Source: Halovenus sp. (GTDB lineage Archaea; Halobacteriota; Halobacteria; Halobacteriales; Haloarculaceae). From it: a stretch of 64,000 bases of DNA. The translations under genes and the position numbers were made by a program. The notes below the pieces were generated by a model. The model saw only the letters and a program-made list of their open reading frames with translations, searched no databases and had not been told where the DNA came from. The stretch's first letter is position 1; every line of letters starts with the position of its first letter. The stretch lies in assembly GCA_003551945.1 (NCBI GenBank), contig PUNZ01000173.1, positions 1 to 64,000 on the forward strand, in the 5' to 3' direction. Below, in pieces: positions 11,498 to 60,379 of the stretch.

Positions 11498-11499
11498 AA

Positions 11500-11766
11500 T
11501 TATTCGTCAAAAACGCGGCTTTCAGTTTTCATGGCTTCGATTTGCTCAGCAGCTTTTTCTGCTTGTTCAGGGAACAGCGCGATTTCAACGGTATTTCCGC
11601 TTTCATCTTCACACGCAATTTTGACGCGTTCATCGCCAAACTCACGGATTTCGAGAGACGTTACGTCATAGAGCTTTGTCGTTGCGGTATTATTTGAGGT
11701 GCCAACGTGTTTCAACGAGCCGTCTTTCAGTTCGAACATAAAGTTGTCGAGGTCGATTGTTATCAT
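11500..11766 (-). CDS. Conserved small haloarchaeal protein, unknown function
   Basis: 88 aa, acidic. It looks like a small beta sandwich or PH-like strand meander (ITIDLDNFMFELKDGSLKH, LYDVTSLEIREFGDERVKI, NTVEIALF) capped by a C-terminal helix (PEQAEKAAEQIEAMKTES). No Cys cluster or membrane segment. It overlaps by near-contact (2 nt) with the downstream catalytically odd alpha/beta hydrolase, so the pair is probably co-translated. I do not recognise a characterised family. Confidence 0.72.
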   Translation of the reverse strand: MITIDLDNFMFELKDGSLKHVGTSNNTATTKLYDVTSLEIREFGDERVKIACEDESGNTVEIALFPEQAEKAAEQIEAMKTESRVFDE

Positions 11767-11829
11767 AGCAACTCCTCAGAGGGGAGCAAAGTTAGGGTTT
11801 CGGACAGGGCCGCTATGTAGAGACGCGAG

Positions 11830-12411
11830 CTAGTCGTCTGCGCCTTTGTTCTGAGCGCTGCGGAATGAAGGTGGGTCAGGTTCTATGTGAGCATATTCGA
11901 CGACTCGCTGACCCAGCGTTTCGACACGCTCTGCGAGGTCTTCATCACGAAATTCGCCGTCTTCAATCTCAGTGCGTGCTTGTGGAATGGCAACTTGATG
12001 TGGGACCACCCAGGCGTTTACCGACCGACAGACAGCACGGAGATGTTCAAGCGCCGGGGTTGGAAAACCGCCGCCAGCGACGGTCAACAGGCCAACAGTC
12101 GTGTCGGTAAACTCATCGAAGCCACAGTAATCGAGCGCATTCTTCAAGGCTGATGAGTATGAGCCATGGTACAGTGGCGTACCGAGAATGAGAGAATCAG
12201 CAGCTGTAAAGTCTGCTTTGAGCTGGGCGGCATCGCCAACCTCTCTGTTATCTGCATCAAAAACAGGTAAGTCATACTCTCGAAGGTCAACAAGCTGTGT
12301 CGTCGCGCCGTATTCACGGGATTCAGCAAGCGCATGCTTGACTGCAATTCGTGTGTAACTTTCGTCGCGTAGGCTACCGACCACGCCGACAATATGCGGG
12401 GGGGAAGACAT
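11830..12411 (-). CDS. NADPH-dependent FMN reductase family protein
   Basis: 193 aa flavodoxin-like fold. The N-terminal phosphate-binding loop GVVGSLRDESYTR (about 9-21) and the flavin-contact block LILGTPLYHGSYSSALKNALDY (about 74-95) are typical of NAD(P)H:FMN/quinone reductases (SsuE/ChrR-like). Another marker is LLTVAGGGF. It is a cytosolic electron-transfer enzyme of undetermined acceptor. It lies 63 nt upstream of the 88-aa gene on the same strand, so it may head that unit. It is divergent from the DUF5787 gene. Confidence 0.9.
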   Translation of the reverse strand: MSSPPHIVGVVGSLRDESYTRIAVKHALAESREYGATTQLVDLREYDLPVFDADNREVGDAAQLKADFTAADSLILGTPLYHGSYSSALKNALDYCGFDEFTDTTVGLLTVAGGGFPTPALEHLRAVCRSVNAWVVPHQVAIPQARTEIEDGEFRDEDLAERVETLGQRVVEYAHIEPDPPSFRSAQNKGADD

Positions 12412-12515
12412 TGTTCATTCTCAGATGTCAGTTACTAAAGTCCCGGTGATTTCCCACAATTCCTGTCAGCGAGCCGTTCGATATACTCAACAATCTCCCA
12501 TTCCTGAGAGAGACT

Positions 12516-13556
12516 GTGGACTCGGAGTTTCAGTTCGAATTGGGTGTTTGTCAGTGGGCCGAGCAGTTCTGGCCGCCTGAGAGACGACGAACCAAGCCAG
12601 TCATCGTTGCCCGTCAACTCGGCACGAAGCGTCGGCGGTGGGATACGCTCGTTATCGAATGTAACGCCGAGGGACTCAGACAACGAGCCAACTTTGGAAC
12701 AAAGCGATTGGATTCAAATCTGCTACACGTTGTCCGGAATGCCCCCGCCTCGTACGAATGGTATCGGGATGCTCTGCCTGAACCATCCTACCCGTGGCGG
12801 TACGTCAGAGACGCAGTCCACCAGGCAGCGGACCGCGGTCTGATTAAGCGCAGGCGTGGGCATGGTGGCCGAATCGAACTTAAGCGAAAGTGGACCTATC
12901 CTGAATGGGTTGAACGAATCGTTGCTATCGAAAATAAGCCTGATCTTGATGCGAGTGCCGCCCGTGACCTGGCCACCCAACTGGAACGAGATATTGCACT
13001 CTCACTTGCCGATGAAGTCTGGGTCGCAACAGCGACGACGGACGACTCAGTTGAGCCAGTGTTACTCACAGAGCGACCACAAGAGGCTGGGATTATGACA
13101 ATTGACTCCGGAATCCGCGGTAAAGACAGCGCGGCAGTTGTCTGGCATCCGAGTACGCTCGATGTCTCCGCGCCGGGAACCCGAATTCTCGAACAACCAA
13201 CAGGTGGCAAATATGATGCGTCTGCCTGTCGATTTGAGTACGTTTCGCCAGCGTGGAAAGCAACCAAGCGTCTAGAGATAGCCGAACGAGCATACGAGCG
13301 CGGCTGGCGGTCGTATCTCTCATCGATGCGTCCGGACTGTCGGTATTTTGAACTGCGACCCGAACCTGATGTGCCCAGACCCTACTGCAGCGCGAAAGCC
13401 TGTTACCAGACTGCCCGTGAGTGTGCTGGCTCGTGCGCGGCGTTCGAACCGGAACCACCGATGTGGCGACAGCACGGCTGGCCCATCACCGGCGGACCAG
13501 GTAATGGAATCAAACGGCTCTTGAGCGAACAGCGAGAACGACAGCGACCAAAGTAA
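12516..13556 (+). CDS. DUF5787-like protein with possible PD-(D/E)XK nuclease core and Cys cluster
   Basis: 346 aa from a GTG start. The N-terminus SEFQFELGVCQWAEQFWPP followed by VARQLGTKRRRWDTLVIEC recalls haloarchaeal DUF5787 proteins. Acidic residues in RWDTLVIEC (Asp43, Glu48) and VAIENKPD (Glu139, Lys141) could form a PD-(D/E)XK nuclease site, with a winged-helix-like basic insert between them (RDAVHQAADRGLIKRRRGHGG). The C-terminal third holds Cys275, 291, 296, 303 and 307 (DCRYF, PYCSAKACYQ, RECAGSC), a pattern suited to an Fe-S cluster or zinc. Function is unproven. It is a single gene, divergent from the FMN reductase. Confidence 0.75.
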   Translation: MDSEFQFELGVCQWAEQFWPPERRRTKPVIVARQLGTKRRRWDTLVIECNAEGLRQRANFGTKRLDSNLLHVVRNAPASYEWYRDALPEPSYPWRYVRDAVHQAADRGLIKRRRGHGGRIELKRKWTYPEWVERIVAIENKPDLDASAARDLATQLERDIALSLADEVWVATATTDDSVEPVLLTERPQEAGIMTIDSGIRGKDSAAVVWHPSTLDVSAPGTRILEQPTGGKYDASACRFEYVSPAWKATKRLEIAERAYERGWRSYLSSMRPDCRYFELRPEPDVPRPYCSAKACYQTARECAGSCAAFEPEPPMWRQHGWPITGGPGNGIKRLLSEQRERQRPK

Positions 13557-13624
13557 TTCCTTTGTGGGCAACCACATATTACCTACGAACGTAATTACCA
13601 CTAAAAGTTGACTGAACTTAGTGC

Positions 13625-16600
13625 TCAGTCAGCACCACTTCGTGCGGCGGTTACCGGTTCGCCGGCCTCCAGTGTTGCGGAGTCTGGAAGTTCGGTTCGA
13701 ACATCTGCCTCAGGATGTTCTTGGATGATTTCTGCGTACGCATCTGGAAGTACTCTGGTAAACTGCTCAACTGCATCGTCCCAATTATCGAGTAGTTCCG
13801 TCGCCCGTTCAGAGCCAGTGTAGGCAGCGTGGTTCTCAACGAGACGAGCGAGCATCTCGCGGTCGCTTTGGTCCAGCTCGTCCGATAGAGAGACCATCCC
13901 GGTGTTTGCGCGGTCTTCCAACGTCCCATCAGGGTTGTAAACATACGCAACACCACCGGACATTCCGGCTGCGAAGTTCTTGCCAGTTTCCCCGAGAACG
14001 GCGATTGCTCCTCCAGTCATATACTCACAGCCGTGGTCACCGACCGATTCAACAACTCCTTTGACACCAGAGTTACGGACGGCAAACCGTTCCCCTGCGG
14101 CACCGTTGATATAACATTCACCCTGCGTTGCACCGTAGAGGGCAACGTTGCCGGTAATGATGTTCTCGCTTGCCTTGTAGGAGGCTGACTCCGGGGTTCG
14201 AACGATTAATTTTCCGCCAGAGAGCCCTTTGCCAACGTAATCGTTTGCCGTTCCAACAAGGTCCATTGTCACACCATCTTGGACGAAGGCACCGAAGCTC
14301 TGTCCTGCCGTTCCATCGAAGCGGATCGTCGCAGTATCATTCGGAAGGCCAGCCGTTCCGTTCGCCTGTGAGATACGGTTTGACAGCGTTGCACCCACCG
14401 TGCGGTCGACGTTCGTAATCTCCGTATCGATGGTTACTGGTTCGCCATGTTCGATGGCCGGTTCAAGCTCAGCAAGCAGTTCCCAGTCGAGTTGCGAGTC
14501 GATGTCGTGGTTCTGCTCTTGGGTCTTATAGCGGTCGACGCCTTCCGGCCGGTCAGGTTCGACAAGCATGGATGATAGGTCAACTTTTTTCGCTTTCTCC
14601 TGGGTGACATCATCGCGCTGTCGAAGCACGTCAACCCGACCAATCATCTCATCGACCGACCGGAAGCCGAGTTCCGCCATAATTTCCCGGAGTTCCTGTG
14701 CCATGAACGTCATGTAGTTGATGACATGCTGTGGCTCTCCAGGGAATCGCTCGCGGAGCTTTTCGTTTTGTGTTGCGACACCGACTGGACAAGTGTTTTC
14801 GTGACACTGTCGCGCCATCACACAGCCGGACGTGACTAGAGATGCAGTTCCGAAGCCGTAGCCTTCCGCACCAAGCAACGCCGCAATGGCGACATCGCGT
14901 CCTGTTTTGAGTCCGCCGTCAGTCGTGACGCGAATCCGGTCGCGTAGACCAGTCGTACAGAGCAGTTGGTTCGCCTCTGCGACGCCAAGTTCCCACGGAA
15001 TGCCTGCGTTCTTAATCGATGTTTTTGGCGAGGCACCTGTTCCGCCGTCATACCCCGAGATGTGCACAACATCTGCGTTTGCCTTGGCGACACCCGCAGC
15101 GATGATTCCAACGCCAGCTTCTGCAACCAGTTTCACGTTGATATCCGCCTCCGGATTGGCTGCCTTTAGGTCGCGAATAAGCTGTTTGAGGTCCTCAATT
15201 GAGTAAATGTCGTGAAGTGGCGGCGGTGAAATGAGTCCGACACCCGGCGTTGCATACCGGACGTGAGCAATCATCTCGTTCACTTTCTTGCCGGGGAGGT
15301 GCCCACCTTCGCCAGGTTTTGACCCCTGTGCCATCTTAATCTGCAGTTCGTCAGCGGCTGCCAGATAAGTCGACGTCACCCCAAACCGGCCCGACGCAAC
15401 CTGCTTCGTCGAGCAGTCCTTTTCGGTATCAAAACGCTCGGGTGGTTCACCACCTTCACCAGTGTTCGCTGTCGCACCAAGACGGTTCATGGCGATTGCA
15501 TTGTTTTCATGCATCTCCGGCGAGAGCGACCCGAGCGACATGGCGGAGGTTTCGAATCGTTTTACAATTTCTTCGATTGGCTCGACCTCGTCAATCGGAA
15601 CGGAGTCTCTGTGTTCTGTCTCGAAATCAAGCAACCCACGAAGCGCGGCGAGCTGTTCAGTCTGGTCATTGATGAGTTCGGCAAATTCGGAGTAGGTTTC
15701 ATAATCTCCCGTTCGGACAGCTCGCTGGAGCGTGCTCACTGTTTGTGGGTTCCACTGGTGATAAATACCGCCCGTCCGGTTCTCATACTCACCCACGCGC
15801 TCGAGGTTTGCCTCATCATCGCTCCAGGCAACCGCGTGACGGTCCAAGAGGTCGCTTTCGATTTCCTCAATGCCGATTCCCTGCGTTCGGTTTTCGGTTC
15901 CCTCGAAGTATTCGGCGATGAACTCAGCTGAGAGGCCAACCGCCTCAAAAATCTGTGCCCCTTGGTAGCTTTCGACCGTCGAAATGCCCATCTTCGCCAT
16001 CGTCTTCAATAGACCATCCTCGATAGCGTTGATGTAGGCGTCGATAGCCATACTCACATCTGCTCCGTCTGGCCCGGCAACGAGGTCTGCAATAGTTTCG
16101 TATGCAAGATATGGATTTATTGCACCCGCACCGTAGCCAATAAGCGTCGCAAAATGGTGGACTGCACGTGGGTCGCCTGATTCAAGAACGAGACCTACAT
16201 GGTTGCGTTTGCCGTTTCGGACGAGATGGTGGTGCACGCCGCTGACAGCGAGCAGCGATGAGATTGGTGCCCGGTCCGGCCCGGCGTTACGGTCTGAGAG
16301 AACGAGAATGTCGTGTTCATCTGCAAGGTCTGCAGCCTCTGTACGAACCCGTTCGATTGCTTCTTCGAGCGACTGCTCATCTGCATCAAACGTAATGTCA
16401 ACAACTCCGCTCGACATCCCGTTCGCATCGAGGGCTTTGATTGCTTCAGTTGTCTGGTCGGTGAGAATCGGAGAGTCGAGCACTAGCTGACGAGCGTGTT
16501 CCGGAGTCTCTTCAAGCAGATTTCGCTGATGTCCAAGCCGTGTTTCAAGGCTCGTGACCAACTCTTCGCGGATGTAATCAAGCGGCGGGTTTGAAACCTG

Positions 16601-18181
16601 TGCGAACAACTGTTTGAAGTAGGTAAACAGCGGTCGGTTGTGCTGTGAGAGGACTGAAAGCGGGGTATCATCTCCCATCGAGCCGACGGGGTCTTTCCCC
16701 TTTTCTGCCATCGGTTCGAGCAGATGGTCGACCTCGTCATAGGTATAGCCGTGCATCGCCTGATACGCTCTGAGCTGTCCGACGCTATCCTGTGGTGTGT
16801 TATCGTCATTTTCCGTGATATCCTCGACGACAACTTGCTCCTGGTCAACCCATTCACCGTATTTTTCATCGGAAAGCCCTTCAAACACCTCCGAATCTGG
16901 GATGATTCGTCCTTCATCAGGGTCAGCAAGGAAACACTGTCCAGGTTGCAGGCGACCTCGCTCAACGATTTCACTCTCATCGTAATCGAGTGCACCAACC
17001 TCTGATGCCATGACGAGCGTATTGTCTTCAAGGACGTCGTAACGACACGGACGAAGGCCGTTTCGGTCGAGGACAGCACCAACACGTTCTCCATCAGTTG
17101 CCGCAACAAGGGCAGGGCCGTCCCACGGTTCGACAAGCGAGGCGTGATAGTCGTAGAAATCGCGGCAGTGCTCAGGAACGGCGTTTTCTTCGCCGCGCCA
17201 GGCCTCAGGAATTAGCGTTCTGAGCGCGTGGGGGAGTGAACGGCCACCCATCATGAGCAGTTCAAGAGCGTTATCAACGCTTGCAGTATCCGACTGGTTT
17301 GGGTCGTCGATGATTGGCTTGATATGGTCGATATCCTCACCAAATTCATCGTGTTGAATGTCCGTCTCACGCGCCCGCATCCAGTTTATATTCCCCTGAA
17401 TCGTGTTGAACTCCCCGTTGTGGATGATGGTGCGGTATGGATGAGCGAGATGCCACGCACCGAGCGTGTTTGTCGAAAACCGGGCATGAACCATCGCAAA
17501 CGTTGATTTCATCCGGTCATCGTGCAGTTCAGGATAGTACTCCGCGACTTGCTCGGCCGTAAGCAATCCCTTATACACGAGCGTTTTGCGGTCGAGCGAG
17601 ACGATATAAAATTGCTCGGAGCCAGCGAGGTCCTGATTCTCGACCTCGTTTTCGGCGATTCGTCGGCCAACGTACAGCCGTCGGTCAAACTCCTCGGAGG
17701 AAAAGTCGGCACCGTCGACTGGGGCCACAACCACCTGAAAAACAGCAGGCTCGGAATCAAGTGCAGTCTGTCCAAGGCCAGTATTATCCGTCGGAACCTC
17801 ACGCCACGCGAGGACCTCAAGTTCTTGCGTTGCAAGTTGCGCTGCGATGAGCGATTTGAGAGCGTCGTGAGTGGTTTCGTCTTTCGGAAAGAACAGCGAA
17901 CCAACCGCATACTCTCCTGGGTCAGGAAGCGAGATAGCAAGTTCATCCGCAAAAAAGTCGTGTGGAATCTGGAGCATAATTCCCGCGCCGTCCCCGGTAT
18001 TTTCCTCGGCGCCGGTCGTTCCGCGATGTTCCATGCACTCCACGAGTTCTAATCCGTCACGTACTACCCGTGCACTTTTCCGGCCGTCGAGGTCCATGAC
18101 AACCCCGACACCACAATTTGAACGAGCGTCGGCCGGGTCTGCAAGGCCGGCGACCTCGTCCGCCATGAGTCTCTTTGTCAT
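13625..18181 (-). CDS. gltB: Glutamate synthase large subunit (ferredoxin-type)
   Basis: 1518 aa from ATG 18181; the ORF track begins 45 codons earlier in AT-rich non-coding sequence. It makes two glutamates from glutamine and 2-oxoglutarate. The glutaminase domain starts with SNCGVGVVMD; Cys about 23 is the amidotransferase nucleophile and the preceding 22 residues would be a removed propeptide. The central and FMN/2-oxoglutarate domains follow (SGYDGGTGASPKTSIKNAG, GLKTGRDVAIAALLGA). The 3Fe-4S Cys pattern CVMARQCHENTCPVG lies at about 1120-1131. The GXGXG domain ends the protein. No gltD is adjacent, so ferredoxin is the likely donor. It is monocistronic, with a palindrome in the promoter. 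Confidence 0.96.
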   Translation of the reverse strand: MTKRLMADEVAGLADPADARSNCGVGVVMDLDGRKSARVVRDGLELVECMEHRGTTGAEENTGDGAGIMLQIPHDFFADELAISLPDPGEYAVGSLFFPKDETTHDALKSLIAAQLATQELEVLAWREVPTDNTGLGQTALDSEPAVFQVVVAPVDGADFSSEEFDRRLYVGRRIAENEVENQDLAGSEQFYIVSLDRKTLVYKGLLTAEQVAEYYPELHDDRMKSTFAMVHARFSTNTLGAWHLAHPYRTIIHNGEFNTIQGNINWMRARETDIQHDEFGEDIDHIKPIIDDPNQSDTASVDNALELLMMGGRSLPHALRTLIPEAWRGEENAVPEHCRDFYDYHASLVEPWDGPALVAATDGERVGAVLDRNGLRPCRYDVLEDNTLVMASEVGALDYDESEIVERGRLQPGQCFLADPDEGRIIPDSEVFEGLSDEKYGEWVDQEQVVVEDITENDDNTPQDSVGQLRAYQAMHGYTYDEVDHLLEPMAEKGKDPVGSMGDDTPLSVLSQHNRPLFTYFKQLFAQVSNPPLDYIREELVTSLETRLGHQRNLLEETPEHARQLVLDSPILTDQTTEAIKALDANGMSSGVVDITFDADEQSLEEAIERVRTEAADLADEHDILVLSDRNAGPDRAPISSLLAVSGVHHHLVRNGKRNHVGLVLESGDPRAVHHFATLIGYGAGAINPYLAYETIADLVAGPDGADVSMAIDAYINAIEDGLLKTMAKMGISTVESYQGAQIFEAVGLSAEFIAEYFEGTENRTQGIGIEEIESDLLDRHAVAWSDDEANLERVGEYENRTGGIYHQWNPQTVSTLQRAVRTGDYETYSEFAELINDQTEQLAALRGLLDFETEHRDSVPIDEVEPIEEIVKRFETSAMSLGSLSPEMHENNAIAMNRLGATANTGEGGEPPERFDTEKDCSTKQVASGRFGVTSTYLAAADELQIKMAQGSKPGEGGHLPGKKVNEMIAHVRYATPGVGLISPPPLHDIYSIEDLKQLIRDLKAANPEADINVKLVAEAGVGIIAAGVAKANADVVHISGYDGGTGASPKTSIKNAGIPWELGVAEANQLLCTTGLRDRIRVTTDGGLKTGRDVAIAALLGAEGYGFGTASLVTSGCVMARQCHENTCPVGVATQNEKLRERFPGEPQHVINYMTFMAQELREIMAELGFRSVDEMIGRVDVLRQRDDVTQEKAKKVDLSSMLVEPDRPEGVDRYKTQEQNHDIDSQLDWELLAELEPAIEHGEPVTIDTEITNVDRTVGATLSNRISQANGTAGLPNDTATIRFDGTAGQSFGAFVQDGVTMDLVGTANDYVGKGLSGGKLIVRTPESASYKASENIITGNVALYGATQGECYINGAAGERFAVRNSGVKGVVESVGDHGCEYMTGGAIAVLGETGKNFAAGMSGGVAYVYNPDGTLEDRANTGMVSLSDELDQSDREMLARLVENHAAYTGSERATELLDNWDDAVEQFTRVLPDAYAEIIQEHPEADVRTELPDSATLEAGEPVTAARSGAD

Positions 18182-18210
18182 ATCAACAAAGGCAAGATGC
18201 TCAACACATA

Positions 18211-18225
18211 TCAGGGTAACCCTGA
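18211..18225 (-). promoter_or_regulatory. 15-nt palindrome in the gltB promoter (candidate operator)
   Basis: TCAGGGTAACCCTGA has 7-bp perfect arms around a single central base. It lies 30-44 nt upstream of the gltB ATG, at or just above the expected TATA/BRE position of a leaderless promoter. An Lrp/AsnC-type or other nitrogen-responsive repressor could bind here; that is inference. Confidence 0.5.
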
Positions 18226-18571
18226 AATGGCAATAGTATGTTAATGCCACATAAGGATATTTTAATTTATTAATATAATTCAAATTGGTACGTCGTATAT
18301 TTTGACGAACAGCCAATTAAAGCCCGTAAATAGATGTGTTTGTTCATTCGTAAGACCCCAATATAAACATACCGATGCTAGTGAACCACACTTGTGAACG
18401 GTGCAGGAAAACCCATATGAAAACATTCATAATGGATGTTAGTTTATATTCTTCCATTGTACTTTTTGAAAAGATAATTTGTCGATGGCGACTGGGTTAC
18501 TGAGCGCATTCTTGCGCGGCCATAGCAAGAAATGACCGATAGACACTTTCTCTCTTCGCCCATTCCACTGA
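18226..18571. other. AT-rich intergenic region between gltB and hydrolase
   Basis: About 350 nt without a convincing gene, in the divergent space between gltB and the hydrolase. It is clearly AT-richer than its surroundings (for example TATTTTAATTTATTAATATA near 18257). A near-perfect 19-nt inverted repeat (AACATTCAT-A-ATGGATGTT, one G-T mismatch) lies at 18422-18440, next to a TATA-like TTTATATT (18443-18450). The latter is over 120 nt from the hydrolase ATG, so a long leader or a short unannotated transcript is possible. A 16-codon ATG frame at 18485 is too weak to call. Confidence 0.45.
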
Positions 18572-19297
18572 ATGATGCAACATCGAACAGAGCTTTCAGT
18601 CGACGGAGATAAACTCGTGGCAATCCATCATGAAGCAGCCAGCGACCGGTGGATACTCTTTTCGCATGGCTTCCTGAGCGACAAGGAAGGAAGTTACGAG
18701 TATCGAGCACAACGTGCAGTTGAGCAAGGATTTAACGCTGTTCGATTTGACCACCGCGGCTGTGGGGAATCCGACCTCCCCTTTTCCGAGCAAACGCTGA
18801 GTACCAGATTAGCGGATATGCAGGCTGTGATGGATGCCTTTTCAGTCGATTCGTGTCTCCTGTTTGGCTCCAGCTTTGGCGGGAAAGTTGCACTACATAC
18901 CGCTGCTGTCGATGACCGTGTACAGGGCGTTGCTGCCCGAGCGCCAGTCACATACAATCGACTCTTTGAGAGGTATCATCCTGAAAGCAAGAGTCCTCAA
19001 CAGACCAGCGACCATGATGTGTCTCTTCCAGTAGACTTTTTTGAGGATTTTTCAAGGTATCCATTTGAACAGGTCCTCGATAACTGTACAGTGCCACTCT
19101 GTCTGTTTCACGGAACAGCGGATGAGACGGTCCCAGTTACCACGACCCTCGAAGCGATTGGGGCGCTTGAAGCAGATGTCACCTTTCACCAGTTTGCCGG
19201 GGAAGGCCATCGATTTTCGAGGGCGGCCGAAGGCCGCTTACAAAATCAGTTATTCGACTGGATCCACCGCGAGGTACGCGAAGTACAGACCAAATAA
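18572..19297 (+). CDS. Alpha/beta hydrolase (serine hydrolase family)
   Basis: 241 aa with a complete triad pattern: nucleophile elbow FGSSFGGKVAL (Ser about 94), acid in HGTADETVP (Asp about 193) and His in GEGHRF (about 218). The oxyanion region FSHGFLSDKEG and FDHRGCGESD match cytosolic esterase/acyl-peptidase-like hydrolases of about 240 residues. Substrate unknown. Two ATG codons sit in tandem at 18572/18575. It stands alone and converges with the alkyltransferase-like gene (18 nt). Confidence 0.9.
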   Translation: MMQHRTELSVDGDKLVAIHHEAASDRWILFSHGFLSDKEGSYEYRAQRAVEQGFNAVRFDHRGCGESDLPFSEQTLSTRLADMQAVMDAFSVDSCLLFGSSFGGKVALHTAAVDDRVQGVAARAPVTYNRLFERYHPESKSPQQTSDHDVSLPVDFFEDFSRYPFEQVLDNCTVPLCLFHGTADETVPVTTTLEAIGALEADVTFHQFAGEGHRFSRAAEGRLQNQLFDWIHREVREVQTK

Positions 19298-35147: not shown

Positions 35148-38100
35148 TCACTCACACTGTGTTTCCTCCCCGTTCACAGGCCCAGTGTGTGGATACAGAG
35201 CGGAACATTCTGGATTCGCAGTATCTCTGTCACCGACACCAATGCCACCTGGCGGAACGATGACGACAAGTGCTGTCCGCTCAGCAACTGAAATTGGGTC
35301 AACCTCCCCAACGTGTTCGTCCGCACCACCAACGGGAAGACTGACCGTAGCGTCCTCTCGAACATAAGTCAAAGGCGTCGTAGTCGCAGTTGTCATTAGA
35401 TTCGCGCTTACTTCGAATCGACTATATTCACCCTGTACCTGAACATCCCAGGTATTGACCGTTGCATACCACATTCCCGGTACAGGGAGAAGCGGCATCC
35501 CCGCAGGAACTCGTACGGGTGTATCGACGCCATCGACCCAGTCATCGTACTGGTCAATGTCAAACTGGTCTTCAACCGTCGAAGAAATTCTATCTTCGAT
35601 GATATCAGAAGAAACGTCAGTTAGCCCCTCACGAATGTACTCATCCAATTGTTCGAGTTCGTCAACCGCCGCTATCGTGACAGTCTGTTCTTTTGCTGAC
35701 GTCGTGAAAGCGGGATAGACACTCGATTCAACTGTTCCCTCCCACGCAGCCGAGCTGTTGAGATGGGACGGTTGGTACGTGTCTGCCCCAAGGTCAGCGC
35801 TCAATTGCTCCGTCAGTGGGCCAACGAGTTCGCCGTTTCCAATGGCTATGGCGCGTTCACCGACGGTATCGTACGCTTCGAGTTGGTCAGCAAGGGCTGC
35901 TTCAATCTGCTGTTCAGCATCAGCGACAGTCGAATCACTGGAAATGTGACACCGGTACTCGGATTGCTGGCACGTTTCAGGAACCGCAGCAAGTTCGATA
36001 TTCACTGTGTTATCAGCCTCATCAACGACACGTACCTCATCTGGGTAGAGTGCGTACAGAAGCGAATGGGTAAAGTCGTCTGCAAACTCCTCAATGCCCG
36101 CTTCAGTCTCCTTGCGGACCGTCTCAGTCTGGGTGGCAAGTGACTCCTGAGAACCATACTCCCCAGTCTCAGCGCCAACAATTGCAAGCTCGCCCGCCCT
36201 GAGTGCTTCTCCAGCGGTCTGAAGCGGCAGTTCGGCAGCTGGGTCACCAAACCCGATGACCGAACTTAGCCGGTCAAAGAAGCCAGCAGCAAGCGTTTCA
36301 TAGGGCATCTGCAGATGGTTATGATTGGTGAGCGAAAGCGGGGCAAATTCCTTGTCGTCTCCAACCTGTGGTATCTCTTCATCAGTAACCGTCTCGGTTG
36401 TTAAGTACGTCGGAGAGCCTCGAATTTCATAGCTGATATCCTCGCCTGTTTCGATTGGCACTGGTTCAGGCTCTTGCGGGTGGATACCCTGTTGGAGTGC
36501 AGTTACCCCTTGTTCGAGACCACCGTCAATATCTTCGAGTGTTTCATCGAGTCCCGAGAGGGCCTCGCTATGCCCATCATCAATGGCTTCGAGGTCCTGT
36601 ACAAGGAGGGTAAAATAGCTGTCTGTGAGTTCACGCTTAATAAGCCCCGCAACTGTCTGCGTGGTTTGGTCCTCGACGATTTCTGCTTGCGTCTTTTTTA
36701 CCTGAGTAATGAGACCGCCGACGGGAGTTGGCTCATCAACCCCGCCATCGGAGATGAGTTCGCTTCGTTCGAACGTGTGATTTACCGCTTCAACCGCTGA
36801 TTGTACGCTGTTGAGGTCGCTAAGGAGCGCTGCCCGAAATTCGTCACTCACCTGGTCTGCCAGCGAAATGTGTTCCGTTGTAGACCCTGAAAACTCCCCC
36901 GTCTCTGCAGAGGGTTCAACCGCTGATTCAAGCCACTCGGCCATAGCCTCGTCACTCGAATCACCAGCAATCCCCGTGAGGATCGCCTCGGGTACGCTAT
37001 CGGCTGTCTCGAACAATGAGTGCCCTGCAAGCATTGTCGATTCGTGTGCGCTAGTCCAATCAGCCACTGTTTCACCCGCGATGGGCCCCGAAGCGTGTGA
37101 GTCTGGGCCGATTTCGTCCACAGCAATAGCAAGCGAGAGTGTACTGTCAGCAGTCTCAGTTTCGGTAGTCGTGGCTGATTTGGTTGTTCCGTTGGAACGG
37201 TTCAAGTGCCACGTTTTCTCCTCTCGGACCGTAACCGTGGCCGTAATATCCGACAGTGAAAGGTCTCCGTTCTGAGAACTCTCCGCGGACACCTCACTCA
37301 GAGCTGACCCAACCGAAGCGCTTTCAATTGCTGTGCGGACATGTTCGCGTTCCGATTCGGTCACCGTTGCTGAGTCGGTTGGTTTGTCGTGGGAAAACGT
37401 TACTTCAGAGGTTTCTACGGTCGAATCAATCGTGGCTTCAACCGTTACTGCACGGTCGATAGCAGATTCCAGTGAATGCGTTCCCTCGCCTGCCACAAGC
37501 GTCCGAAACGGGAGGTATGCCGTTTCGTTGACGCCGATGGTATGTTCAGCATCCATCCCTGGCGCAGCACCGAGCAGGTCAGTCGTCTCCGGTGGGTCCG
37601 GGAGTTTACCAGTTTGTGCGTCGCCAAGGAGCCATTCGCTACGTGAACAGATGTCGGCAGAGACGTCCGGTTCAGTGTTACTGTATTCTTCATAGAGGCC
37701 CTCTGCATCCTGTGATGCCATACAGAACCACCCCTGTCGAACGGCGTTACCGAGGGTCGGGTCTGCCTCTCCGAACACATCCTGTTGGGTGCGGTAAAGC
37801 GCGTGGTTTGTGATTGGTTCTAGATGACGGTTTGCGATAACTTCGGTAATTGGAGCACCACCGTACTGTGCATACCCGCGAGCCCACCCGAGGGCATATA
37901 GTTGTGCGTTGAATCGCTGTGAAAAGCCAGATTCGTACACCCCTGCATCAAGTCGCTCCTGAAACGCTTCAGTCCGCTCGTGCATCTCAAATAGCGGCGA
38001 CTGGAGCGTCACGGACACTGAAGTTGTTTCCGATGAAATTGAGTCCCCGTGTATCTGTGACTGTAATTCGACCTCGGACAGTTCGATAGTCACCAATCCA

Positions 38101-38582
38101 TCAGTATCTTCGGTAATTGTGACTCGTTCGAGCGCATCGCGAAACGAACTTCTGTCCTCGATAGCAGGTGTTGAGACGGTTGTTTCCACGTCTCCAACCT
38201 GTTGACCGGCGGACGGAAGCGTCGACGTGGCTTCCGTTGCAATTAGTGCTTTGACGTAGTATCGGAACAGTGCTGTGTCGTCTGAAGCAAAGCGCTCTAG
38301 CTCGGTGCCGTATGTCGTGTTTTTCGTGGTTGTCAAAGGCCGTTCAGCAGCCTGTGTCATTGCTTGTATGACCGCCTCTTCTAGTGCCGATTGCGTGCTC
38401 ACCTCGGTTCGCTCCATTGCAGCAGCAGCGTCCCTATCAACGTCGGGTGAGGACTGGACATGGACTGAACCGACAAGCGCAACGGCTGAGAGCAACACAA
38501 GCGCCCCAATTACGGCGAGTGGCACCATTCCCCGTCTAGCAACAGTCGCAGCAGCCGGTCGGGAACAGTCACCCGATCTCAT
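35148..38582 (-). CDS. Large single-TM exported protein, last gene of a pseudopilin-like operon
   Basis: 1144 aa. The start MRSGDCSRPAAATVARRGM at 38582 overlaps the previous stop as ATGA. A basic N-terminus precedes a single helix (MVPLAVIGALVLLSAVALVG), after which the entire chain is hydrophilic, Ser/Thr/Glu rich and presumably outside the cell. It includes a Cys-rich patch (TCQQSEYRCHIS) and a conserved-looking WARGYAQYGGAPITEVIANRHLEP. The order of partners matches a haloarchaeal group I recall as DUF7284-7285-7286; the numbers are unverified. The ATGA overlaps show translational coupling with the two preceding genes. Function is unknown; the topology recalls minor pilins or TadG-like proteins. 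Confidence 0.78.
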   Translation of the reverse strand: MRSGDCSRPAAATVARRGMVPLAVIGALVLLSAVALVGSVHVQSSPDVDRDAAAAMERTEVSTQSALEEAVIQAMTQAAERPLTTTKNTTYGTELERFASDDTALFRYYVKALIATEATSTLPSAGQQVGDVETTVSTPAIEDRSSFRDALERVTITEDTDGLVTIELSEVELQSQIHGDSISSETTSVSVTLQSPLFEMHERTEAFQERLDAGVYESGFSQRFNAQLYALGWARGYAQYGGAPITEVIANRHLEPITNHALYRTQQDVFGEADPTLGNAVRQGWFCMASQDAEGLYEEYSNTEPDVSADICSRSEWLLGDAQTGKLPDPPETTDLLGAAPGMDAEHTIGVNETAYLPFRTLVAGEGTHSLESAIDRAVTVEATIDSTVETSEVTFSHDKPTDSATVTESEREHVRTAIESASVGSALSEVSAESSQNGDLSLSDITATVTVREEKTWHLNRSNGTTKSATTTETETADSTLSLAIAVDEIGPDSHASGPIAGETVADWTSAHESTMLAGHSLFETADSVPEAILTGIAGDSSDEAMAEWLESAVEPSAETGEFSGSTTEHISLADQVSDEFRAALLSDLNSVQSAVEAVNHTFERSELISDGGVDEPTPVGGLITQVKKTQAEIVEDQTTQTVAGLIKRELTDSYFTLLVQDLEAIDDGHSEALSGLDETLEDIDGGLEQGVTALQQGIHPQEPEPVPIETGEDISYEIRGSPTYLTTETVTDEEIPQVGDDKEFAPLSLTNHNHLQMPYETLAAGFFDRLSSVIGFGDPAAELPLQTAGEALRAGELAIVGAETGEYGSQESLATQTETVRKETEAGIEEFADDFTHSLLYALYPDEVRVVDEADNTVNIELAAVPETCQQSEYRCHISSDSTVADAEQQIEAALADQLEAYDTVGERAIAIGNGELVGPLTEQLSADLGADTYQPSHLNSSAAWEGTVESSVYPAFTTSAKEQTVTIAAVDELEQLDEYIREGLTDVSSDIIEDRISSTVEDQFDIDQYDDWVDGVDTPVRVPAGMPLLPVPGMWYATVNTWDVQVQGEYSRFEVSANLMTTATTTPLTYVREDATVSLPVGGADEHVGEVDPISVAERTALVVIVPPGGIGVGDRDTANPECSALYPHTGPVNGEETQCE

Positions 38583-39562
38583 CGGTTCCACTCCGTGACA
38601 GCAATGGTAACTTCATCGAGAGCAATTGCTTGCTGTGCATCGACCGGCGTCGAAAACTCCTCTCGGAACTCCCAATAAAACTGTGTAGAGAGTTTTTCGA
38701 TGAACTGCTCTCTCAATGACTGTTCAACACTGCTATCGGATTCCCTTTGCATAACCGATTGCGCAGAGAGATGTTCCTCTATCTCGCTGTCGGAAATGTT
38801 CGAATCCTCAATGAGATGCATTAGATTGTGAATGCGGACAAGTGCCCGTTCACGGTCGTTCTCAGTCGAAGTCAGTTGTCGCTGGGTCTGTTGTGGTTTG
38901 AGCAAGCCATCGACAACAACGGTTGCGAGCGTCCGAGAGAGTCGCTCAAACGAATCAGACTGATTTGTCGAATTGTCAGTACCCTCTTTCAATTGTGCGT
39001 CACCGTTTCGAAATCCACTTGGAACGGTTTGCTGTGAGACCGTCGTCTCAACATCGGCCGGCGGTGGCTGCCCGAAAGAGATTTTCCCGTAACTGTTGCT
39101 CCCCTCAAACAGTTCCCATATCGCGTGTACCTGCCACTCTGCTGAATCGAGTAGTTTGACATTCGTTATCTCGGTTTCTAGCCGCTCTCTAAACGACTGG
39201 TCAGATACATTTTGCTGAGACCCCACTTGGTCTTTCTCTCCGGCAGTGGCGTTCGCGACTGCTGCAACAGCAAGTCCACGAGCAAGCGAGCCCGCAAAGG
39301 CCTGGGCTGTCGCCTCTTTGTCGTCTGCTGAATTGCCAGTAGCGGTAGTACTCACGGCCGCCAGTTCAGCGCCAGTTGAGTACGTGAAATTAACCGTTGT
39401 CGCCGAAAGCGTCTCAACCGCATATGAGTGCTCAGGGCCTGAATCAGGCTGGTCGTGAGGAACAATTGCAACAAGGGCAATAGCACCTGAGATGAGGACA
39501 AGCGCAAGCGCGACATCAACGACGGTGCTGATTGCACGATGTTGGCTGCTGCTCTGAGTCAT
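38579..39562 (-). CDS. Single-TM exported protein, third gene of the pseudopilin-like operon
   Basis: 327 aa from MTQSSSQHRAISTVVDVAL at 39562, whose ATG overlaps the stop of the preceding gene (ATGA). The ORF-track start at 39694 reads through that gene in another frame. The N-terminus HRAISTVVDVALALVLISGAIALVAIV is one membrane anchor. The rest is extracellular-type, polar, with an Asn/Gln/Ser/Thr-rich middle and a C-terminus rich in charged helices (FIEKLSTQFYWEFREEF). I recall related haloarchaeal proteins as DUF7284. It overlaps the downstream 1144-aa gene in the same ATGA manner. Confidence 0.78.
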   Translation of the reverse strand: MTQSSSQHRAISTVVDVALALVLISGAIALVAIVPHDQPDSGPEHSYAVETLSATTVNFTYSTGAELAAVSTTATGNSADDKEATAQAFAGSLARGLAVAAVANATAGEKDQVGSQQNVSDQSFRERLETEITNVKLLDSAEWQVHAIWELFEGSNSYGKISFGQPPPADVETTVSQQTVPSGFRNGDAQLKEGTDNSTNQSDSFERLSRTLATVVVDGLLKPQQTQRQLTSTENDRERALVRIHNLMHLIEDSNISDSEIEEHLSAQSVMQRESDSSVEQSLREQFIEKLSTQFYWEFREEFSTPVDAQQAIALDEVTIAVTEWNR

Positions 39563-40047
39563 GGCAGTACCTCGATGTGCAACAGTCCTGGTCTGATTTC
39601 CCCGGGGGCCATCTGAACCGGGACAGTGCGAGAGACTCCATCGAGTGAATGTGGCTGTATGTGAGTGTCGAGGGCAGTAGTGGACAAACGACACTCTGGA
39701 TGCTCTATGGCATCTCTCGTTTCCCCACCGTCTGTGACGATGAGTTGCTCACTAACGCTTTGATTGCCGTTGTGATTGATAACAAGAAGGGTAATACAGA
39801 TTGATTCTGTGAACGGTTCCCCAGCAAGCGCATTTGAAGCTGACTGTCTGTCTGTCCGAATGACTCCATCTTCACTGAGTGATTGCCACACCGCCTCTAA
39901 ATCGGCTTCCTCATTGGTTTCCTCCGAGCCGAGTTCCGCAACGAACTCTTCGCTTGTCACAGCATACAAAGACAAGCCCACAGCAAGCGCTGCAACAGCA
40001 ATGACTGCAGCCAGCGGTTCGGTTTGACCACGATATCCATCCTGCAT
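39559..40047 (-). CDS. Pseudopilin-like exported protein with RGQTEP N-terminus
   Basis: 162 aa. The N-terminus MQDGYRGQTEPLAAVIAVAA reads as a short positively charged leader, a G-Q junction, a nearby Glu, and a long hydrophobic stretch (AAVIAVAALAVGLSLYAVT). That resembles archaeal class III (prepilin-type) signal peptides, although the fit to the strict PibD consensus is loose. The remaining 130 residues are polar with two Cys (SICITLL and HPECRL) that could form a disulfide outside the cell. I recall similar proteins as DUF7285. It is followed by the next gene through an ATGA overlap and preceded by the 172-aa gene with 60 nt between. Confidence 0.78.
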   Translation of the reverse strand: MQDGYRGQTEPLAAVIAVAALAVGLSLYAVTSEEFVAELGSEETNEEADLEAVWQSLSEDGVIRTDRQSASNALAGEPFTESICITLLVINHNGNQSVSEQLIVTDGGETRDAIEHPECRLSTTALDTHIQPHSLDGVSRTVPVQMAPGEIRPGLLHIEVLP

Positions 40048-40107
40048 ACGCTGTAGCTGACTGGCCGAGGGTTCGTATATAAAATCACGGAGGCGTCCTG
40101 AGTGTCG

Positions 40108-40626
40108 CTATAGCCGAGTCACAAGTACAACGCGTTCCCCCTCATGTTCGATGAGTGTTAATAACAGTTTGACATCGCCACGCATATCGCTCAAGTCAAG
40201 CCTTTCATCCGATTCAATCAGGACCGGTACGGACAGCTGCTGCGTTTGTATGTGCCCAGCAGCAATCTTGTATTCAACCTGTCCCGTTGTCTCAGGATAT
40301 CCAGGTGCTATCCTGAACGTATCGAGACCTGTTGAGCCAACTCCCTCAGATGGTAATGAAAGAGTGGCGACTCGTTGTGCTGGTTCCTGTCCGCGTTTCG
40401 CAAGCGGTTCGGATTCATAGAGGTCCAGTGCTGTCGAGTCAAGCTGGTGGATAGCTGTCTCGACCTCAGAGTGGGCACGCTCGGTTTCAATATACTCTAC
40501 TGCGAACAGTGATACCGAGAGTATCGTCGCTGCGACAGTCACTGCGAGGACATACCGAATCACAGCCTTGGCTATCCTCGCCTTCCGATATAAGCGGTGG
40601 GAGGCCAGGGACCCCAACGATACCAA
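40108..40626 (-). CDS. Single-TM exported protein, first gene of the pseudopilin-like operon
   Basis: 172 aa. A basic N-terminal segment (HRLYRKARIAKAVIR) leads into one helix (YVLAVTVAATILSVSLFAVEY); residues after about 48 are hydrophilic and probably outside. Conserved-looking elements are IHQLDSTALDLYE and GQVEYKIAAGHIQTQQLSVP. It lacks the RGQTEP motif of its neighbour. It is the first gene of the four on this strand and 48 nt downstream of the OsmC gene's stop. No ATPase (TadA/PilB-like) or TadC-like gene is adjacent. Confidence 0.72.
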   Translation of the reverse strand: MVSLGSLASHRLYRKARIAKAVIRYVLAVTVAATILSVSLFAVEYIETERAHSEVETAIHQLDSTALDLYESEPLAKRGQEPAQRVATLSLPSEGVGSTGLDTFRIAPGYPETTGQVEYKIAAGHIQTQQLSVPVLIESDERLDLSDMRGDVKLLLTLIEHEGERVVLVTRL

Positions 40627-56287: not shown

Positions 56288-59200
56288 TTACATAAACTCG
56301 CCAAGTCCTTTCTGTTCCTGTCCGGATTTGACCTCTTGCCACGAAATATCGAGTGCTTCGAGAATTCGCTCAATTGGCCCCTGGAGGGTCTTTTCGAGCA
56401 TCTTGTCCCAGTCAATCTCAAATTCCTCGGGGAGTTGATCAGCATACTCGATACAGATTACATCCGGGTTTCGCTTGAACTCACCATACAGCGGGTCAGT
56501 CGATGGGTCAAGGCCAAGCTCGCTTTCAACTCGCTCGAAGAAGTCCGAGTGGACGCGCTTGAGATAGAGCCGTTTGGGTTTTGAGCCACGCTGGAAGTTC
56601 GTCCCGAGCAAGAGATTTGCGTATTTTGCCCCGCGGACCTGTGCCGTATCGGTATCGTAGTTGTCCAGTCGTTTCCCAATGCCACCAGGAATACCAATCC
56701 GTTCCGGATCGGCTTTCCCCTCTTTGAACTCCTCGATGACCTCCGTTACATACGTCTTGATATCCTCGAAATCATCGCCGGTCACGATCATCTCGATGAC
56801 GTTTTTTTGCACCTCTTTGGTGATGGCGGCGATATCAGAGCGCTGGTATTCAAAGCCAGTAATATCGATATCATCGACCTCTTTCCCTTCTTTCCAGACG
56901 ATATGTCCAGCATAGCGCTTCTTTTTACCAGCCTGGAAGAATCGCTTGTAGAGTTTTTCAAACTCAATCTGGAACCGATGTTCTGTAGCGTTTAACACCT
57001 CCAATGCAAACTCATCATAAGATTTGTTAATCCGCTCCTCAATTTCGAGCGAGCGCTCGATTGCTTCGTCCTGTGAGACCTCATTACCAACGCTTACCAT
57101 GACGCTGTCGGTGTCCCCGTAGATCACTTCTTTGTCAATTTCGTTGGTGACTTCCTCCGTGAACTCGATGACCTCACGACCCGTTGCTGTGACAGCAGCA
57201 CCCATTTCGCGGTCGTACAGCCGGAATCGGGTCCACCCCAAAACGCCATAGAGAGACTGACCAACGTGCTGGAACGTTCCGTTTCGGCCGGCCATGAGGG
57301 TGTGGTTATCCTCGACAGTAACGCAGTATACACCCTTATCAGCGGTACTACGAGAGCCACTCCTATGCATTCGGAAGGAATTCTTTCCGCCCTCGGTACA
57401 GTAGAGTCGCCACGACCCGCTGTCATGGTTGTACGTTACCGTTTTGCCAAGCTGCGCACACAGTCGGATAACATCGTCCCGAAGTGTTTGACTGGCTGTG
57501 GAAAATCGCCAGGAGTTGGGTTGGCGGTCTCCATCCCCGTCGATGAGCGTCTCAAGGAACAGTTGCTTTTGCTCCCTGCTGGCTTGGAATATACATTCGG
57601 GAATCCGCTTCTCAAAGCTTCCGTCACCACAGGAGTCTTTGAGGAAGTTCCCAAGGAGTTCCGATGTAAAGCTAAATGAGCGGTCATCAGTGTAACAATC
57701 GAATCCCATACTATCAAGCAGTTTTCCGATTCGTGAGTGGTGGTTGTCGCCACCATCCGGAAGAACATCCAGTGATTGCGTAGCAGTAGTACCCTCTTTG
57801 TCAGTAGAGTCAGCGCTTTGTGCGATTTTGACCGTTGTGGAGCATCCCCGGTAGTTATCCCCGAATTGCTTTTCAGTGGTTGTGTAGACGTTTCCTTCAG
57901 TGATATACCACGCGAGGAACTCGATGAACTCATCGCCATCGTAGACTCTTGGAATCCACTTGCGATTCGGTTCAGCATGGATGTAGCTGCGCTCGCAAAC
58001 AGATTCGATATACTCTCGGTGTTGTTCAAACTCCGCGGCGGTGAAGACATATCCAACCTGACCGATATCGTTTTTCTGAACTCTGGGTGGTGTCCAACCC
58101 AACTCCGTTGTAAACGTATGTCCGTGAACTGACGGTCGAACCCAAACCTCGTACTCCGCATCGATGTATTCGGTCAGGTCGACTGTCTCAATACGACAAC
58201 CGTGTTCGAAATCCCAGTCATGGGGGAGTTCGTAATGACTTGATTCGTTGAGGTCGCCGGCTTCAATGAAGTCCCAGCTATCCTGTGTAATTCCGTTTGT
58301 GTCGTTCTGGCGGACAAGCATCCGGTGGTTTGGCGTTACGCGGAAATCGATTTTGCTGGTCTGAATGTCGACGAGTTCCCCGCGATAGTCCGGGTATGCG
58401 TGGGTATCAGTGACCTCCTTCACCTGTAAGTTCATCGTTCCGGGGTCGAGCGAATAAACCTCATCACCAATTTCGAGGTCGGTGATTAGCCGGACGCCAT
58501 CAGGTGTCAGCACCTCGGTATCCGGCGTGAAACAGTTCATGATTACCTTGACAGCTTGTTGTTGGCGGTCATACTGCTCGTATTCAGCAGATTTGGGGTC
58601 GTGCTGATTTCGGAGTTCCTTCTTTTGTTCTCGCTCGGTCAACAGCTCATCGACCATCCCACGGATTGCGCCGTCTGGTTCCTGCTGGAAATGTGTCCCA
58701 TTGGGCGCACGGTAAGTCTCATCACCGTAGGAGTCGGGGTTGACTTTGGTCTCTGGCGATGCGTTAATTGTTACCATGCACATCGGGTAGAGGCTCTTCA
58801 GGTCGAGCACGCTCACATTCTCTCGAACGCCAGTAATTGGGTCGAACACAGCCCCACCCTCGTACTCTTCGCTCTCTTGTTGTCCTTTCGAGGGGAGGGC
58901 GAATTTGTCGTGCAATTTATGCAGGACATACATGTCCACTGCATCGCCGGGAGTGGTGGCGTCTTCAAGTTTACAGCCGACAAACTGGCGCACTTCGTTC
59001 CAGAACGCAACGATGTCTTGTTCTCGGTCAAGCTCGACACAGAGTTCAACATCCCGAAGGTTGTATTCGAGCAACCGTTCGGGGTTTTCTTCCCACATAT
59101 CCCCGATATCGCCCGTATAGCGTTCCTTTCCGATACCGAGTTCGCGCTGGCCGACCGCTTCGAGGCGATAGGATTCGAGTTCGGTAAACTGTGTTCGCTG

Positions 59201-60316
59201 ATAGGCATACAGCAAGTCAAACACCACACGACCTTTGATATCAGGTCCGCCCCAGCCACTGTCCCAGACCTCGTTGACCCGGGAAAGGCGATTTGAATCA
59301 AGGTCCTGTTTTGACGAGCTATTGAGTACGTCGAGACGGTCCACGAGATACGGGGCATCGAAGTCGTCAAAGTTCCAGCCAGTCAGGACGTCCGGGTCCG
59401 TCTCATCGAGATACTCGATGAACTGGGCGAGCATCTCTGCTTCACTCTCGTAAATACGAATGTCGTAATCTAGCTCGACCACTTCATCCGACGCCCTGCG
59501 TGAGTCGGTTTGAATGGGTTCGTACTCAGGGAGTTCTGACGGTGGGGTGACGCCTTTCTGTGCATCAACAAGCCAGAGAATATACTGGTCGTCGTAGGAA
59601 TCGTGACTGGCAATACAAATGATAGGCTCTTCTCCCTCCTCAGGGAAACCATGGCGGTCCTCAACTTCAATATCGAAGGTGTTGACACGCGGGGTTACAT
59701 CAACGTCTACGGGTTCAACTTCTTTGTGGTGGACCCGAACGGTCATTCGGTCCGAGTCATCTGCCCCGCTGATTTCTCGGCGCGGGATTCTGATACCACT
59801 CGTGATGTCCTTATCGATAAGGAACCGATTTGGAAAGAGAATATCCGCTTCGTAATGGTCAAATTCGTCTCGAACTTGTCCAACGTCTCGGGGCGTCTGC
59901 CCGTATATCTTTAGGAGTTCTGTCCCACGGATGGACTGGAAAGGGTTCCCGTTTGTATCGGTTTCATCCCACCCGGTAATTCGGTCATATTCCTGTAATC
60001 GTCCCTCGGTAACCGAATCAGCTGGTGTGTAAAAATAGGGCTTGAACTCTCGAACGCGCGCGTGGACGAGTTCGCCGTCAGTTGTCCGACCAAACACGTG
60101 AATGACGGGATACTCGCCATCACCGTTCCCTTCTATCGTATAATCGACCTGCATGACCGCAATATCGACCGTCTCGTCGGTCTCTTCGTAAAGCACGTCA
60201 GCTTTATCAAGATGCGTCGTACTCGCTGTGTTACCGGCGACGGCTTTCGCTTCCTCGGACGCGGGACGGGCATCCTCGTCATCCGTAGAATAATCCCCAA
60301 GTGAAGACTGACCCAT
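56288..60316 (-). CDS. polB: Family-B DNA polymerase (PolB) with an intein
   Basis: 1342 aa precursor from MGQSSLGDYSTDD; the ORF track adds 21 residues. Removing the 426-aa intein leaves 916 residues. 3'-5' exonuclease motifs are NTFDIEVED (Exo I), WNFDDFDAP (Exo II) and YNLRDVEL (Exo III). Polymerase motifs are LDLKSLYPM (A), KVIMN/SLYG (B, split by the intein) and VIYGDTDSVMV (C, not interrupted). All catalytic acids are kept. The replicative or repair polymerase should bind PCNA: QSSLGDY near the N-terminus and QKGLGEF at the C-terminus resemble PIP boxes. Divergent from dinB. An inverted repeat sits in its promoter. Confidence 0.97.
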   Translation of the reverse strand: MGQSSLGDYSTDDEDARPASEEAKAVAGNTASTTHLDKADVLYEETDETVDIAVMQVDYTIEGNGDGEYPVIHVFGRTTDGELVHARVREFKPYFYTPADSVTEGRLQEYDRITGWDETDTNGNPFQSIRGTELLKIYGQTPRDVGQVRDEFDHYEADILFPNRFLIDKDITSGIRIPRREISGADDSDRMTVRVHHKEVEPVDVDVTPRVNTFDIEVEDRHGFPEEGEEPIICIASHDSYDDQYILWLVDAQKGVTPPSELPEYEPIQTDSRRASDEVVELDYDIRIYESEAEMLAQFIEYLDETDPDVLTGWNFDDFDAPYLVDRLDVLNSSSKQDLDSNRLSRVNEVWDSGWGGPDIKGRVVFDLLYAYQRTQFTELESYRLEAVGQRELGIGKERYTGDIGDMWEENPERLLEYNLRDVELCVELDREQDIVAFWNEVRQFVGCKLEDATTPGDAVDMYVLHKLHDKFALPSKGQQESEEYEGGAVFDPITGVRENVSVLDLKSLYPMCMVTINASPETKVNPDSYGDETYRAPNGTHFQQEPDGAIRGMVDELLTEREQKKELRNQHDPKSAEYEQYDRQQQAVKVIMNCFTPDTEVLTPDGVRLITDLEIGDEVYSLDPGTMNLQVKEVTDTHAYPDYRGELVDIQTSKIDFRVTPNHRMLVRQNDTNGITQDSWDFIEAGDLNESSHYELPHDWDFEHGCRIETVDLTEYIDAEYEVWVRPSVHGHTFTTELGWTPPRVQKNDIGQVGYVFTAAEFEQHREYIESVCERSYIHAEPNRKWIPRVYDGDEFIEFLAWYITEGNVYTTTEKQFGDNYRGCSTTVKIAQSADSTDKEGTTATQSLDVLPDGGDNHHSRIGKLLDSMGFDCYTDDRSFSFTSELLGNFLKDSCGDGSFEKRIPECIFQASREQKQLFLETLIDGDGDRQPNSWRFSTASQTLRDDVIRLCAQLGKTVTYNHDSGSWRLYCTEGGKNSFRMHRSGSRSTADKGVYCVTVEDNHTLMAGRNGTFQHVGQSLYGVLGWTRFRLYDREMGAAVTATGREVIEFTEEVTNEIDKEVIYGDTDSVMVSVGNEVSQDEAIERSLEIEERINKSYDEFALEVLNATEHRFQIEFEKLYKRFFQAGKKKRYAGHIVWKEGKEVDDIDITGFEYQRSDIAAITKEVQKNVIEMIVTGDDFEDIKTYVTEVIEEFKEGKADPERIGIPGGIGKRLDNYDTDTAQVRGAKYANLLLGTNFQRGSKPKRLYLKRVHSDFFERVESELGLDPSTDPLYGEFKRNPDVICIEYADQLPEEFEIDWDKMLEKTLQGPIERILEALDISWQEVKSGQEQKGLGEFM
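57257..58534 (-). mobile_element. Intein with LAGLIDADG homing endonuclease inside polB motif B
   Basis: 426 aa, from Cys (CFTPDTEVLTPDGVR) to Gln just before SLYG. Splicing block A is CFTPDTEVLT, block B DIQTSKIDFRVTPNHRMLV (with the TxxH-like TPNH). Two LAGLIDADG-type motifs are present: IEFLAWYITEG and FLETLIDGDGD, so the homing endonuclease looks intact. Block F is VYCVTVEDNHTLMAGRNG. The last residues are FQHVGQ then extein Ser: the C-terminal residue is Gln, not Asn, and the penultimate residue is Gly, not His. Insertion is between Asn and Ser of KVIMN/SLYG, the known polB 'a' site region. Confidence 0.92.
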
Positions 60317-60335
60317 GATAGTCCGTGTTTGCTCC

Positions 60336-60355
60336 CACCGGTAAAAACTCCGGTG
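60336..60355 (-). promoter_or_regulatory. Inverted repeat around the polB TATA-like core (candidate operator)
   Basis: CACCGG-N8-CCGGTG, perfect 6-bp arms, 20-39 nt before the polB ATG. On the coding strand the spacer is AGTTTTTA, TATA-like and about 29 nt from the start codon. The 6-8-6 layout equals that before sufC, with different arm sequence. Confidence 0.48.
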
Positions 60356-60379
60356 AAAGATAGCGGTTGCATCAGCCAC

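Follow-up and report, generated by a model that had tools for sequence, protein, structure and literature searches.

Four minus-strand genes between positions 35148 and 40626 of a 64,000-nucleotide stretch of Halovenus sp. DNA (contig PUNZ01000173.1 of assembly GCA_003551945.1, hereafter the window) probably encode the exported-subunit half of the haloarchaeal PilB2-PilC2 (subclade 4F) machine, a type IV pilus-like system. Each of the four open reading frames (ORFs) matches a curated Pfam family of unknown function far above its cut-off (DUF7311, DUF7285, DUF7284 and DUF7286, in the order of transcription), NCBIfam holds no model that matches any of the four proteins, and no motor gene adjoins the block or is present in the window. 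A first-pass annotation, made from the sequence alone, had proposed an extracellular filament or surface machine assembled with a motor encoded elsewhere, so far undescribed. We find that the cognate PilB-PilC pair is indeed encoded elsewhere, on another contig of the same genome, and that in almost every other haloarchaeon examined orthologues of the block do adjoin TadA/TadC-type (PilB/PilC) genes; the claim of novelty held only in part, as the system appears to match one already in the literature. The block is a real, well-conserved module, and its layout is a new arrangement within a system that is known but uncharacterised.

Orthologous operons and the distant motor

We clustered the neighbours of 23 DUF7286 loci and searched 80 named haloarchaeal loci with tblastn, which revealed the consensus order DUF7310-DUF7311-PilB-PilC-DUF7283-DUF7285-DUF7284-DUF7286-DUF5791-NAD epimerase-DHH. 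PilC was present at 76 and PilB at 73 of the 80 named loci; given this fixed gene order, the exported block belongs to a pilus-type operon. The motor has several companions and features: firstly, DUF7310 (PF23991), a coiled coil, occurs at 70 of these loci and at eight motor loci from other members of the window's genus; secondly, a CetZ/FtsZ-like gene is found at 38 or more of the named loci, and in at least 37 cases it lies about 1 kb upstream of PilB, no farther off than about 2 kb; thirdly, four N-terminal cysteines of this PilB (C34, C36, C52 and C62) are invariant in our alignment (A2). No PilA-family pilin gene was recognised within the conserved operon.

Because N-terminal cysteines, a coiled-coil partner and a nearby CetZ are published traits, the DUF7286-linked motor appears to match the CetZ2-associated PilB2-C2 regulon, that is, subclade 4F; the identification draws on neighbourhood and domain traits, arCOG identities aside. 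Both descriptions are bioinformatic and state the role to be unknown: subclade 4F was defined by Makarova et al. (2016; PMC4858521), who also linked stand-alone PilA-family pilins to it, and the PilB2-C2 regulon (arCOG01818) was reported in Halobacteria (PMC9856176). One component of the system has been labelled an S-layer-like or surface protein (PMC4858521, PMC9856176). The orthologous loci share with the regulon (PMC9856176) the PilB-PilC pair, exported proteins, an epimerase, a DHH-family gene and a CetZ near PilB, whereas in the window's genus the regulon is found in two or three pieces and no CetZ was seen in the window, where the exported genes lie. With subclade 4F (PMC4858521) they share an ATPase with N-terminal cysteines, a cytosolic coiled-coil protein and an occurrence in both Halobacteria and methanogens, and the large protein described here may be the published S-layer-like one; by contrast, the motor here is unlinked from the exported block.

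The orthologous motor of the window's own genome, which is 82% complete, lies on contig C218, where a PilB scoring 853 bits against the operon PilB profile (131 bits for the next paralogue of this genome) is followed by PilC, DUF5791, the epimerase (SDR) and DHH. This PilB carries C46, C48, C64 and C76, a pattern missing from the other ATPases of the genome that we checked, and DUF7283 is found on a third contig, C57. All eight congeneric motor loci contain DUF7310-PilB-PilC; in six of them DUF5791-epimerase-DHH comes next, and no exported block stands between PilC and DUF5791. Two relatives with long contigs have the motor and the block at a distance of about 425 kb (G002) and 780 kb (G015). 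Comparison of gene order thus shows a divided operon in this genus: the motor has kept its old neighbours, the exported block has moved, and DUF7283 is separate again. In G011, placed in the same genus, the motor is still adjacent to the block. A genome of a different genus (G020) is broken at another point, with PilB-PilC-DUF7283-DUF7285 together and DUF7284-DUF7286 about 759 kb off, and by their coordinates 6 of the 105 genomes with both have the motor and DUF7286, for at least one copy, separated by more than 20 kb or placed on two contigs. These data show that the motor and the exported block can be separated in the genome without either being lost.

Divergent from the motor on C218 (6689-7213, minus strand) stands a PilA-like prepilin gene, whose match to Pilin_N (21.2 bits) falls just under the cut-off. 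A homologue of this gene lies upstream of the DUF7286 locus in another genome (G013), which hints at a shared history of both loci.

It is highly improbable that the block works instead with PilB3-PilC3, the adhesion motor that is the best studied of the haloarchaeal pilus motors. The Haloferax pair HVO_1034/1033, which we take to be PilB3/PilC3, includes a 566-amino-acid (aa) PilB that lies beside Trm9 and TrxB1, a gene neighbourhood that contradicts this assignment, and the DUF7286-linked PilB is a separate paralogue of 690 aa. HVO_1034/1033 have been described as Haloferax pilus genes (PMC6985049), HVO_1032 as Trm9 (PMC5372719) and HVO_1031 as TrxB1 (PMC10294847). We had at first assumed this motor, because the PilB3 locus was reported to be without pilin genes (PMC4858521, PMC6491452), and rejected it on the TrxB1/Trm9 neighbourhood; the two systems are alike in their PilB/PilC architecture and in having pilins in trans, and differ in PilB paralogue and surroundings.

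The pilin-like sets mentioned in the first-pass annotation are probably of the haloarchaeal DUF7263/DUF7266 type, in which small RGQ-type exported proteins with a single transmembrane (TM) helix likewise stand beside a TadA/TadC motor, but the families and the motor are different ones. On contig C54 of the window's own genome (12330-19427, minus strand), a further TadA/TadC locus encodes five small exported proteins with one TM helix each, DUF7263 and DUF7266 among them.

Co-occurrence of the motor and DUF7286

We screened 156 haloarchaeal genomes taken from the order: 105 contain both DUF7286 and this type of PilB, nine DUF7286 only, none the motor only and 42 neither (Fisher p about 1e-29, uncorrected for phylogeny). 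For a smaller set of 40 relatives the corresponding counts were 27, one, none and 12 genomes. Other PilB paralogues are present in DUF7286-negative genomes, two genomes (G066 and G105) carry two copies each of the motor and DUF7286, and seven of the nine DUF7286-only genomes have partial matches, as if the gene were decaying once the motor had been lost. In a third sample, taken from the phylum outside the haloarchaea, we found both in 22 genomes, DUF7286 without the motor in one and the motor without DUF7286 in another, and the two genes are not adjacent in the ten of these genomes that we compared.

Three methanogen genomes, presumably Methanocella-like, hold homologues of DUF7311, DUF7285, DUF7284 and DUF7286 in the haloarchaeal order, together with a gene in the DUF7283 position; the motor does not lie between them. 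Aligning these families with their haloarchaeal counterparts by hhalign gave probabilities of 96.6 for DUF7311, 96.7 for DUF7285 and 98.1 for DUF7284; the gene at the site of DUF7283 reached only 15. Among the haloarchaeal families DUF7283, DUF7284, DUF7285 and DUF7311 themselves, hhalign revealed no convincing homology.

A reading in which the exported proteins are unrelated passengers of the motor operon, and in this genus serve a motor-free surface structure, would fit the full-length DUF7286 seen in two near-complete genomes (G102 and G173) and a 79% complete one (G017) where no motor of this type was detected, as well as three loci (L077, L088 and L103) that lack an adjacent motor. The joint presence, loss and duplication of the two in haloarchaea and methanogens, even when they are unlinked, argues against such passengers, and we consider this reading very unlikely.

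The PilB2-C2/4F system has a wide distribution in haloarchaea and also occurs in methanogens, and from co-loss, co-duplication and split operons its exported proteins can be told and matched with one motor. Since the exported proteins are paired with one specific motor, knock-outs in Haloferax volcanii should be directly interpretable. We did not find the split arrangement, the almost perfect co-occurrence, unlinked genes of methanogens included, or the explicit pairing of five exported families with the motor in the main texts of the published descriptions, whose supplementary tables might hold part of this.

Two features of the methanogen loci stand apart. At L175-L182 the gene after DUF7286, which haloarchaea do not have there, encodes a protein of 177-203 aa with what looks like a signal peptide; it may be an additional subunit or a chaperone. 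In one Methanocella-like genome (G188, locus L205) prepilin-like genes form a large cluster (10939-19171) a few kb away from the DUF7311-7286 block, and no motor was seen beside the cluster.

Pilin-like features and the proposed machine

The exported proteins differ in how closely they resemble pilins. An RG- or RA-type pair ([KR][GA]) directly precedes the TM helix in about 95% of 98 DUF7285 and in 99 of 101 DUF7286 sequences, as compared to RG or RA in only a few of some 84 unrelated ORFs with one TM helix, and most of those few resemble real prepilins. DUF7286 mostly has Arg directly after the motif, an uncommon residue at a cleavage site. The AF2 model of DUF7285 (pLDDT 77) displays a long N-terminal helix and then four longer strands; that of DUF7286 has a mean pLDDT of 72. 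Profile searches of PDB sequences returned nothing significant, and a prepilin peptidase is present in all seven relatives tested. From motif conservation and these models, DUF7285 is a plausible and DUF7286 a possible minor pilin, and DUF7284, DUF7311 and DUF7283 look like membrane anchors. The pilin-like N-termini suspected in the first-pass annotation are general in DUF7285 and hold in part for DUF7286, and their cleavage motif is not conserved in the other three families.

Several observations weigh against assigning the block to a pilus-like machine: methanogen DUF7286 often lacks the Arg before Gly/Ala; DUF7284 has no cleavage motif in Halorubrum, Haloferax and Halobellus, and none is conserved in DUF7311 or DUF7283; no significant PDB match, pilins included, came up in Foldseek searches with the models of DUF7285 and DUF7286; the 82%-complete genome of the window yielded no prepilin peptidase, and its motor locus on C218 no DUF7310; and the co-occurrence counts do not allow for shared ancestry.

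We envisage a PilB2-PilC2 machine in which PilB and PilC would assemble prepilins into a filament or pseudopilus and lengthen it. The trio DUF7285-DUF7284-DUF7286, coupled by ATGA overlaps, would be produced in matched amounts and may act as a minor-pilin-like initiation or tip complex, in which the exported part of DUF7286, about 1100 aa long, would be a large surface-exposed piece reaching through the S-layer, probably a surface or tip protein. The bitopic DUF7311 and DUF7283 might form a membrane scaffold, and the major pilin is probably supplied in trans, the PilA-like gene divergent to the C218 motor being a candidate. We hold these individual roles with much less confidence than the membership of the proteins in the machine.

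The same components could also make up a secretion device or an envelope-anchored pseudopilus, in which DUF7286 would remain at the cell surface, as a conduit or as a scaffold across the S-layer, and no long filament would form. DUF7286, an exported protein of very large size with one TM helix and without an adhesin-like or a pilin-like match, would suit such a device, as would the failure to recognise a PilA-family gene in the conserved operon and the earlier S-layer-like or surface-protein label (PMC4858521, PMC9856176). However, the motor of this genome is adjoined by a PilA-like gene, and stand-alone PilA-family pilins have been tied to subclade 4F (PMC4858521); we regard a device without a long filament as conceivable, though doubtful. 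A broader proposal, likewise tentative, is that DUF7311-7283-7285-7284-7286 may constitute an ancient conserved envelope apparatus common to haloarchaea and to methanogens of the Methanocella- and Methanosarcina-like kind. It would be a new type of pseudopilus-like device, for secretion or for crossing the S-layer, would work with one specific PilB-PilC pair and would have as its giant component DUF7286, whose model has no significant match among solved structures.

The four genes and their neighbours in the window

The coordinates of the block are given in Table 1. The four genes lie on one strand as first annotated, and the junctions CCATGACTC (39559-39562) and CGATGAGA (38579-38582) bear out the ATGA coupling of DUF7285, DUF7284 and DUF7286, the last of these having the predicted length when counted from its ATG.

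Table 1. Genes and junctions of the exported block (window coordinates)
Feature	Position	Strand	Basis
DUF7286 protein, 1144 aa (from ATG)	35148..38582	-	Pfam PF23957 E=6.8e-188, alignments
ATGA stop/start overlap DUF7284/DUF7286	38579..38582	-	sequence
DUF7284 protein, 327 aa (from ATG)	38579..39562	-	Pfam PF23955 E=1.2e-40
ATGA stop/start overlap DUF7285/DUF7284	39559..39562	-	sequence
DUF7285 protein, 162 aa, RGQTEP prepilin-like N-terminus	39559..40047	-	Pfam PF23956 E=2.1e-16
60-bp gap DUF7311/DUF7285, TTTTATATA at about 40076-40084	40048..40107	-	sequence, orthologous order
DUF7311 protein, 151 aa; longest ORF reaches 40626	40108..40563	-	Pfam PF23993 E=6.6e-29

All four proteins are exported with a single TM helix, as had been noted. 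In DUF7286 an RG motif is followed by the helix and an exported multidomain region; DUF7284 has an N-terminal TM helix and an exported domain, and its refined start shortens it from 371 aa; DUF7285 begins MQDGY-RGQTEP and contains RGQTEPLAAVIAV, in agreement with the start reported earlier. The basic N-terminus once ascribed to DUF7311 proved to be an artefact of an over-long ORF: its orthologues begin at the TM helix (MIRVVLAV...), its start was refined to a GTG, and the protein is a single N-terminal TM anchor without a cleavage motif.

The 60-bp gap between DUF7311 and DUF7285 marks the position at which pilB-pilC-DUF7283 sit in most haloarchaea. It holds TTTTATATA, a possible promoter for the DUF7285-DUF7284-DUF7286 genes, so that a transcript shared by DUF7311 and the other three genes is not certain; of the four-gene operon originally proposed, the coupled trio stands, and DUF7311 may be on another transcript.

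The neighbours of the block on one side encode an OsmC protein and a large helicase whose sequence we read as Lhr-like; those on the other side encode an amine oxidase and an HD-domain protein. Farther along the window, a PemK/MazF-like toxin gene (PF02452; 47285-47874, minus strand) overlaps a small upstream ORF, possibly its antitoxin, and a 1363-aa family B DNA polymerase (56288-60379, minus strand) contains an intein, with Hint domains near residues 613-714.

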